This document shows positions 7,510 through 12,251 of a stretch of 64,000 nucleotides of DNA, piece by piece. How positions within the stretch are numbered: position 1 is the first letter of the stretch; every line of letters starts with the position of its first letter. Below the pieces are notes generated by a model. The model was not told the origin of the DNA, ran no database searches, and was given only the letters and a program-made list of their open reading frames with translations. This DNA comes from Deltaproteobacteria bacterium (GTDB taxonomy: Bacteria; Desulfobacterota; Desulfomonilia; UBA1062), in assembly GCA_018434685.1 (NCBI GenBank), contig JAHDOV010000006.1, positions 1 to 64,000 of the forward strand. The letters run 5' to 3'. The position numbers were made by a program, and so were the translations under genes.

Positions 7510-8392
7510 AGGTGGGGAATCAGGCAGGACGGGACTTGGGGAACATGAACTCAGGCAGAAGGGAGAACGAGCCGGTTGGCCCATGAACTCAGGCAGAGCA
7601 AGACTTGAGGCTCAAGATCTCAGGCAGAAGGCAGATCGAGCAGGTTAGCTTAAGATCCCAGGCAGAAGGGAAAAAACAGAAAAAGATATTCACCGCAGGG
7701 ACGCGGCGGACGCAGAGAAAAGATCTTATTATTTGTCGGGAGACGGCGACAAATAATATAATCTTCCTTAGAGACAGTGTTTCATTTCCCGAGTTGTAGG
7801 TCAGGTTGGGAGCGTAGCGAGCTACCTGACAATGGAAGTCGGGATAGAACGAGTTGTAGGGCAGGCTGAAAGCGGAGCGAACTGCCTGCCATTGTCTGGC
7901 AGAATAATCTTGGGGACGGGGGATTTGAGGATATTCTCGTGTAGGAGCGCCTTCAGGCGCGACAAAAGCTGGAAGCACGGCCTAAGCCCGGTCGCGGCTG
8001 TAACCCGCTCCTACAGAACACGGACCAGAAGTCAGGATAGAACGAGAACCGAGGTTGGGTTGGCAGGCTAGTTGGAGAAGCCAGGCATCCGTCTTCGCTT
8101 TCAGCTACACCGGACAATTCGGCAGGATAGCCGAATTGGATGTACCGTAGGATACACCCGCAGGGTGAGCTACATGGATGTAGCGAATCACACGGAAGGC
8201 TGAAGTGATTTCGAATTAAAGACTAAACTGGTAAACCCTTTAAAAACTTCACCGCAGTGACGCAGAGAACGCAGAGAAAAGATCTTATTATTTGTCGGGA
8301 GACGGCGACAAATAATATAATCTCCGTTGGAAACGGTATCGTGATTTTAGAGTGGTTGTAGGTCAGGTTGGGAGCGCAGCGAGCTACCTGAC
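7510..8392. repeat. Composite repeat block (two consecutive copies)
   Basis: Order within the block: AGGCAGAAGG-type filler (7540-7670); a CACCGCAGGGACGC tract (about 7690-7725); a palindrome with TTTGTCG and CGACAAA arms (about 7730-7757); a GTAG palindrome with GTCAGGT arms (7796-7830); a second GTAG palindrome with GGCAGGC arms (7856-7890); and an inverted REP pair (7941-8014). A shorter second copy follows: CACCGCAGTGACGCAGAG at about 8251, the TTTGTCG palindrome at about 8290-8312 and the GTCAGGT palindrome at 8358-8392. No gene is supported from 7510 to 8719. Confidence 0.8.
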
Positions 8393-10739: not shown

Positions 10740-11268
10740 GGCAGAGCGGAACTTGGGGAACATGATTCTAGGCAGGGCGAGCAAGAATACTCGAGATGTC
10801 AGGCAGAAGGGAGAGCGGGACTTGGGGAACAAGATCTCAGGCAGGACGAGCAAGAATACTCGAGATGTCAGGCAGAAGGCAGAACGAGCCGGTTAGCTTA
10901 AGATCTTAGGCAGAAGGGGAAAGATTTCGAACGTCGAATTTCGAATTGCGAAAAGAGAAGACCAGAGCATTGAGGCAACTGAAAGAAAATATTCACCGCA
11001 GTGACGCAGAGAACGCAGAGGAAAAGACTTATTATTTGTCGGGAGACAGCGACAAATAATAGGATCTTCCTTAGAGACAGTGTCTCGTTTCCCGAGTTGT
11101 AGGTCAGTTGTAGGGCAGGCTGTGAGCGAAGCGAGCTGCCTGCCATTATCGGACACCATGACCTTGAGGACGGGTTACTTTGATCCCTCGCCCTGTAGGA
11201 GCGCCTTCAGGCGCGAAAAGAGCTGGATGCACGGCCTAAGCCCGGTCGCGGATGTAACCCGCTCCTAC
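10740..11268. repeat. Composite repeat block
   Basis: Same order as at 7510: AGGCAGAAGG-type filler in which a unit of about 90 bp (GGGACTTGGGGAACA to TACTCGAGATGTC) occurs twice; an AATTTCGAATTGCG tract; a CACCGCAGTGACGCAGAG tract at about 10995; a TTTGTCGGGAGACAGCGACA palindrome; a GTAG palindrome with GGCAGGC arms (11110-11144) placed directly behind a truncated GTAGGTCA copy; and an inverted REP pair at 11195-11268. Confidence 0.8.
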
Positions 11269-11360
11269 AGAGTAAGGCTATGAAAGGTTATCACCTGCAA
11301 TAGACTTTTTCTGATATCATGTTTGGATTAATGGCTGTGGAAAAATTGCAAATGTGTAGC

Positions 11361-11401
11361 GATAACCCGCACGGGGGGATCGTCCCGGCGTGCGGGTTAT
11401 C
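11361..11401 (-). terminator. Stem-loop at the end of the microprotein operon
   Basis: GATAACCCGCACG at 11361-11373 pairs perfectly with CGTGCGGGTTATC at 11389-11401. The stem begins at the stop codon of the 36-residue gene on the minus strand. There is no strong T-run on that side, so it may end or protect the transcript rather than act as a classic terminator. Confidence 0.55.
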
Positions 11402-11511
11402 TAATTTAGAGAGACAGGGGAGGTCTCTTTATGGGCGTTGCGGTTGAGGTAGCGCAGTGCGATGCCGACCACGCTGTGGGTTCCGATGGCGATGAAGGTG
11501 ATAAGCGTCAT
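11401..11511 (-). CDS. 36-residue membrane microprotein
   Basis: A short frame found below the usual length cutoff. It starts MTLITFIAIGTHSVVGIALR and ends with the stop that overlaps the stem-loop. It would have one membrane segment (about residues 2-20) and a basic, polar tail. GGAGG lies 9 bases before the ATG, and the gene follows the AtpZ-like gene with only 3 bases between stop and start, which suggests coupled translation. I recognise no family. Support is from the ribosome site, spacing, hydrophobicity and the stem-loop directly behind it; it remains possible that it is not translated. Confidence 0.5.
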   Translation of the reverse strand: MTLITFIAIGTHSVVGIALRYLNRNAHKETSPVSLN

Positions 11512-11514
11512 GAT

Positions 11515-11739
11515 CTAGCCCCTCCGCTCGATGATGGCTTCCTGGATGAAGCCCTTGAAGCCGAGCACGATGCCGAGGATGAGGAAGAGCAGGGTGAAGT
11601 TGGGGGCCATGTTGAAGAGGCGGTCGAGGTAGAGGCCTGCGTAGAGACCGAGGAAGGTCATGGTGACGAGCACGACGCTGTAGGCGCTGATCCTGGTCAG
11701 CCTGTTTGCCAGCTTGCGTGGGATTCTTTCCTTTTTCAT
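11515..11739 (-). CDS. AtpZ/AtpI family membrane protein
   Basis: A 74-residue protein with two membrane segments (about 14-36 and 45-66). It carries the AtpZ/AtpI pattern GLYAGLYLDRLF followed by a glycine-rich second helix (LILGIVLGFKGF). AtpI/AtpZ proteins are normally coded beside F-type ATP synthase genes and aid assembly of the c-ring or magnesium/calcium entry. No ATP synthase gene is present in this window, so this is an orphan copy. The start MKKERIPRK is preceded by AAGGAGAGAGCC. It lies between two other tiny membrane proteins in a unit with a sigma-54 type promoter. Confidence 0.8.
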   Translation of the reverse strand: MKKERIPRKLANRLTRISAYSVVLVTMTFLGLYAGLYLDRLFNMAPNFTLLFLILGIVLGFKGFIQEAIIERRG

Positions 11740-11771
11740 GGCTCTCTCCTTAGAGTGTCTTCTATCCTGTG

Positions 11772-11948
11772 CTAGAAGAGCTGCATGAGGATCTCTCTGG
11801 CCGGGGCGGTGTTGATGCCCACCAGGGTGACCACGAGGACGAAAACCGCAGTGGCTTCGGCCGGGGTGAGACCGAGAACCCTGTAGGTGAACCTGATGCC
11901 GATGCCGGTCATGAACATGCAACCAAGAACGATCCAAAGTGTTATCAT
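11772..11948 (-). CDS. 58-residue two-helix membrane microprotein
   Basis: The first gene of the three-gene microprotein unit. The chosen start, MITLWIVLGCMFMTG, follows AAGGAGGGCACTCAG, a strong ribosome site; an upstream in-frame ATG has no such site. Two hydrophobic segments are visible, about residues 2-25 and 30-48, separated by LGLTPAEA. The end is short (REILMQLF). No family is recognised. The sigma-54 type promoter lies about 40 bases upstream. Because it precedes an AtpZ-like gene, a role in an ion-translocating membrane complex is possible, but that is only inference. Confidence 0.65.
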   Translation of the reverse strand: MITLWIVLGCMFMTGIGIRFTYRVLGLTPAEATAVFVLVVTLVGINTAPAREILMQLF

Positions 11949-11989
11949 CTGAGTGCCCTCCTTTTTTATCGTGTATCTGTATACCAATA

Positions 11990-12006
11990 GGCAATGAGCG
12001 TGCCAG
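11990..12006 (-). promoter_or_regulatory. Sigma-54 (RpoN) type promoter
   Basis: On the minus strand the sequence is CTGGCACGCTCATTGCC. It matches the sigma-54 consensus TGGCACG-N4-TTGC closely, and the GG and GC doublets are 10 bases apart as required. It lies 41 bases upstream of the ATG of the first microprotein gene, so transcription would start near 11980. This predicts control by an RpoN-dependent activator. Confidence 0.8.
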
Positions 12007-12251
12007 GTTTGATAAATACATAACCTATTGAAATAAGACAGATAAAAAGCAAGCCCTCTTTCACGTTATGACAGGATGGCACGCGGGGGAGGAAAGCGGA
12101 ATTTTCATCCGGTCAAATTGTCAAAGTCAGTGGTTTATCGGCCTCCGGGTCGTGACATTCTGTCAAACTGGCTGATATCCCGGGAAATGCCGGAGCCCTG
12201 CGCCTTGGGTAAGGTCCTGCTGGAATGCCGGAAGAGGCGGCTGGATGCTGG

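Follow-up and report, generated by a model that had tools for sequence, protein, structure and literature searches.

The window, the whole 64,000-nt stretch of DNA analysed, carries a compact operon of three microprotein genes, A, B and C, read on the minus strand from 11948 to 11401 and preceded by an elaborate candidate sigma-54 promoter. Judged from sequence, this is a sigma-54 regulon that would consist solely of a duplicated microprotein operon, with B an AtpZ-type protein and with A and C belonging to no known family. One family of uncultured anaerobes, whose genomes also encode several rotary ATPases, maintains the operon in multiple copies. The operon's products may form an inducible unit acting on the rotor (c-ring) or F0 sector of one of these enzymes, a tentative reading whose chances fall somewhat short of even.

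Much of the anatomy given in the preliminary description stands. Open reading frames of 58, 74 and 36 residues, tightly packed on the minus strand, were confirmed at 11401-11948 (Table 1). The ribosome sites proposed for them are present, clear and purine-rich before A and B and in the form of GGAGG just before C, whose start codon lies 3 nt past the stop codon of B. The 13-bp stem-loop behind the operon is real; it begins inside the stop codon of C, and a T-run does not immediately follow it. All three proteins are predicted to reside in the membrane, A with helices at residues 2-25, 29-46 and 48-57. A is the best conserved of the three, with 18 positions invariant across an alignment of 22 sequences, and C the least. 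B was rightly called AtpZ/AtpI-like, scoring 46.5 bits against PF09527, above the Pfam gathering score of 26.6. The outer proteins were said to match no family, and searches of A and C against Pfam and NCBIfam indeed returned none; DUF7454 was considered as the family of A and dropped, its match lying under the cut-off, and the best match in a structure search with a model of A was no better than E 5. Separately, a dispersed repeat (TGTAGGAGCGGGTTACA...CTCCTACA) occupies window positions 11100-11283, and parts of it occur at several other sites in the window, such as 7852-8017.

Table 1. Features of the operon and its control region (window coordinates).
Feature	Position	Strand	Remarks
Enhancer dyad 1, TGACAGAATGTCA	12153-12165	(-)	Centre -154
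Enhancer dyad 2, TGACAATTTGACC	12111-12123	(-)	One mismatch; centre -112
Enhancer dyad 3, TGCCATCCTGTCA	12069-12081	(-)	Centre -70 from box
IHF-like site, TTTCAATAGGTTA	12021-12033	(-)	8/9 specified bases of WATCAANNNNTTR; same place in most copies
Putative sigma-54 -24/-12 box, TGGCACGCTCATTGC	11991-12005	(-)	Fits TGGCAYR-N4-TTGC with zero mismatch; ~42 bp before A
Gene A	11772-11948	(-)	ORF, 58 aa; predicted membrane protein
Gene B	11515-11739	(-)	ORF, 74 aa; AtpZ/ATPase_gene1 family (PF09527); optional operon member
Gene C	11401-11511	(-)	ORF, 36 aa; predicted one-helix membrane protein
Stem-loop at operon end, 13-bp, GC-rich	11361-11401	(-)	-30.8 kcal/mol, z = -6.0
813-bp unit, enhancer dyad 1 to stem-loop	11353-12165	(-)	Second copy at G000:C56 ~40.1-40.9 kb, 97% identity

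The sigma-54 promoter, first proposed from GG and GC at a fixed spacing, is borne out as a candidate by an exact and conserved box, by the accompanying dyads and IHF-like site and by a genome that encodes one rpoN and 31 activators (PF00158 matches). Zero-mismatch TGGCACGNNNNTTGC sites number only three in the 4.29-Mb genome, and two of them precede copies of the A-B-C operon. Upstream lie three dyads per promoter with the consensus TGNCA-N3-TGNCA, set 41-42 bp apart and centred near -152, -111 and -70. Upstream sequences were compared among 34 copies picked for a good TTGC-type box; the invariance of the box in this set is partly circular because the copies were selected by it. The dyads played no part in the choice, and dyad 3 is found at all 34 promoters (0.14 expected by shuffling), dyad 1 at 31 and dyad 2 at 24. 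The IHF-like site, in its fixed place, scores 8-9 of 9 in 23/34 copies versus 7% of shuffles. Six further copies, at first thought boxless, bring the set to 40: they have TGGCAYR, read TTGA at -12 where the other 34 read TTGC, and retain all three dyads. This TTGA-type subgroup comprises L056, L058, L059:8711, L060, L069:5797 and L095.

The promoter pattern is as restricted as it is regular. The strict combination of box and dyads matches only at the three operons of this genome, with zero matches in the control, and a whole-genome search for the dyad pair alone (42-bp spacing, up to two mismatches) found, besides these operons, a single further site, with two mismatches, on contig C24; its reversed control, also run over the whole genome, gave no match. 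Box and dyads together occur in 23/24 genomes of the family and in 1/36 outside it (G036, scored on the promoter pattern). The confinement of the dyad pair to three operons and one imperfect site argues for a dedicated enhancer-binding-protein regulon, and expression of the operon would be regulated. A candidate activator was sought among orthologues shared with G194, a genome outside the family that holds the operon; the best conserved of these, a probable general regulator, adjoins nitrogen genes of the glutamine-synthetase type, and it was set aside. The promoter signature is sharp and searchable, and the fixed triple dyad offers a handle for finding the activator.

Three copies of the operon are present in this genome. 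Besides the copy in the window, B recurs at C56:40489, where it is identical, and at C56:192526, at 67% identity; both further copies come with A, C and a sigma-54 box. The first of these lies in an 813-bp duplicate that extends from enhancer dyad 1 to just beyond the stem-loop, so that it was the regulated unit that became duplicated. Between the duplicates, changes in A and B are silent only, leaving the proteins identical, and C has several amino-acid changes as well. Such a repeat, at 97% identity, would be expected of a small cassette, bounded by promoter and stem-loop, that propagates with little benefit to its host, as would the way in which relatives' copies break at contig ends, typical of near-identical repeats. 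Against this very improbable explanation, dN/dS has a median of 0.17 in A and 0.22 in B, the promoter is retained in all copies, and several old clades stand side by side in one genome: in the tree of B, copies from one genome fall in different clades and recent duplicates are few. Moreover, the unit has no transposition gene, and no phage, plasmid or viral relatives were matched, so that such an origin was rejected; an anti-phage role was likewise dropped when PADLOC returned no match.

The three-gene order and its sigma-54 sites, which the preliminary description proposed to look for in related genomes, do recur there. The unit is held by 23/24 genomes of the family, this one counted, in about 40 copies; the sole exception, G003, has a completeness of 78%, and in G004 only the promoter and the first part of A are seen, at a contig end. 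A is under strong purifying selection, and the conservation of order, frames and promoter together with low dN/dS is more than chance. Behind B, C went unrecognised in four of the complete copies. Five genomes (G011, G014, G016, G017 and G018) also hold A-C units that have the same promoter and lack B; A and C therefore form the core, and the AtpZ-like B, cast earlier as the heart of the unit, is an optional member. In a profile search of 395 genomes of the phylum, A was found in this family, in G194 (family f67) and in three weak matches (E 5e-4 to 0.01). G194 has the full operon with box and dyads; contamination was considered as its origin and rejected, since its identity to the family copies is only 67-78%, too low for it to have strayed from any of the genomes tested. 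Recurring neighbours (a VOC/helicase/epimerase cluster, an amino-acid ABC transporter, PAS kinases) were judged incidental because they vary from copy to copy, and no rotary-ATPase genes were among the recurring neighbours of other copies.

The operon had also been described as centred on an orphan AtpZ/AtpI protein. It is correct that the window lacks F-type ATP synthase genes, and in fact its 64,000 nt encode no ATPase subunit; the orphan status does not extend to the genome, which has a separate atpZ within an atpZ-I-B-E (F0) cluster on contig C40. Three other rotary ATPases are encoded elsewhere: an F-type enzyme on C47 whose c subunit is a chain of six hairpins, an N-ATPase-like cluster on C1 and a V/A-type enzyme on C42. 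Given this complement, B is an extra AtpZ paralogue, a protein additional to the one in the F0 cluster and not a displaced ATP-synthase gene. The C47 enzyme lies in an F-type operon (L207:9199-10662, G000:C47) in which the 487-aa c subunit spans six PF00137 stretches. In all, c-domain matches number 13 in this genome versus 0-2 in a sister family. At L209:9731-11608 (G000:C55), a lone F-type c-subunit gene with a signal peptide and, behind it, the gene of a dCache membrane protein lie upstream of an Rnf cluster. Nine related genomes and family f32 have the same pair of lone c and dCache genes.

Relatives of A broaden the picture. C aligns to the first helix of A with a probability of 95%, and the two are homologous. 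A second relative, A', is 91 aa long, bears a signal peptide and has the hairpin of A; aligned over 51 columns, the two profiles score 30.9, the best of 150 shuffles reaching 19.2, and the A' profile retrieves A in two genomes. A and A' are likewise homologous. This genome lacks A'; in most of the family genomes inspected, the A' gene precedes one for another AtpZ-like protein. Families f32, f67, f94 and f105 have A' as well, at one to seven matches in each genome. Several A' genes have a sigma-54-like box, and their conserved upstream block differs from that of A; in this second related operon, A'-B' (L142, L062, L267-L285), the block reads TTTCATTCAA...TTGAAC. In family f32, the lone c-subunit gene and the dCache membrane protein are followed by genes for an A-like hairpin of 64 aa and an AtpZ-like protein (L319:979-3440, L322 and L323) in three genomes, G071, G168 and G375; the cluster also occurs at L317 and in G107, where its AtpZ-like member was not recognised. 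Two protein families, A/A' and C, are thereby defined, with a clear AtpZ-type partner.

Whether A itself derives from subunit c is a separate matter. No PF00137 match was found in A or C. Against a PDB profile, helix 2 of A weakly resembles subunit c around its carboxylate (E = 0.067), and in the model of A the residue Glu31 lies at the start of that helix. Profile against profile, A and c score 18.6, a small margin over a null maximum of 17.0 in 100, whereas A' and c score 15.9, below a null maximum of 17.7 in 150; a search with the A' profile found no c chain. With scores near the null and no such match for A', subunit-c homology of A was rejected as an established fact. It is a long shot that the A and A' hairpins stem from the ATP-synthase rotor, or are made to be part of it, and that, with AtpZ-like partners and lone c genes, they provide these anaerobes with an inducible alternative membrane ring, perhaps one that lacks F1.

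The most likely role is one of attending to the rotor, which draws on the precedent of AtpI as a c-ring assembly factor (PMC4154653, PMC8904574), on the pairing of A-like with AtpZ-like proteins across families and on the c gene that adjoins such a pair in f32. In the proposed sequence of events, an enhancer-binding protein active in one specific condition, perhaps low ion-motive force, would bind the three TGNCA-N3-TGNCA dyads, whose spacing is about four helical turns; IHF would bend the DNA, and sigma-54 RNA polymerase would initiate just before A. A, C and usually B would then insert into the inner membrane, A as the core partner, C as a shortened relative of A and B as an AtpZ-type protein beyond the one in the F0 cluster. 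There, on induction, they may help to assemble, exchange or protect the c-ring or F0 of one rotary ATPase. Against a rotor role, no rotary-ATPase gene lies beside the operon here, five genomes have A-C units without B, A only weakly resembles c and A' does not rise above the null. AtpZ has, furthermore, been tied to magnesium supply: atpZ helps magnesium acquisition in Bacillus pseudofirmus (PMC4453477), a finding that counts against the rotor role and for a unit, induced on cation shortage, that takes up divalent cations (Mg2+ or Ca2+) and in which B would act like the B. pseudofirmus protein with A and C as partner subunits. The Pfam label of PF09527, a putative Ca2+/Mg2+ transporter, agrees with such a unit; on the other side, some A-C units lack B and a recurring cation-transport neighbour is absent, leaving cation uptake improbable. 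An ion-transport or membrane-remodelling unit, as put forward in the preliminary description, is a possible role as well. The preferred rotor role offers a testable link to the management of rotor assembly in energy-limited anaerobes.

By control logic, the closest analogue is the phage shock protein (Psp) system (PMC3068692, PMC2763126), in which the PspF regulon and PspG likewise feature tiny inner-membrane proteins driven by sigma-54 and an activator. This analogy suggests the main rival to the rotor role, a membrane-stress response in which small sigma-54-driven inner-membrane proteins curb the leakage of ions across a damaged membrane, B having been recruited as a hairpin and the ATP synthase not being the target. 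That A and C are tiny and membrane-predicted, that A-C exists without B and that neighbours vary among copies would all suit such a response. However, A and C have no Psp-family match in Pfam, the operon contains neither a PspA-like (PF04012) gene nor one for PspF, and the repeated pairing with AtpZ-like proteins across families would go unexplained; a Psp-like role is thus rather unlikely, if less so than cation uptake.

Set beside other known systems, the operon resembles sigma-54 promoters that use upstream activator sites and IHF, having a putative -24/-12 box, an IHF-like site and three helically spaced dyads, although the dyad TGNCA-N3-TGNCA was matched here to none of the known activators. 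Like F-type subunit c (PF00137), A is a small membrane hairpin with a second helix weakly like the c carboxylate region, and a lone c gene adjoins the A-like pair in f32; A differs in having no Pfam match and in the position of Glu31 at the start of helix 2. B shares with the AtpZ/ATPase_gene1 family (PF09527, which includes the N-ATPase AtpQ) the same size, the same hairpin and the pattern GLYxGxxLD ... PxFT ... G; its score against NCBIfam TIGR02230, 18.8 bits, is under the 46.7-bit cut-off. Unlike its relatives in F-type and N-type ATPase operons, B sits outside such operons, is apparently under sigma-54 control, occurs in multiple copies and is partnered with A and C.
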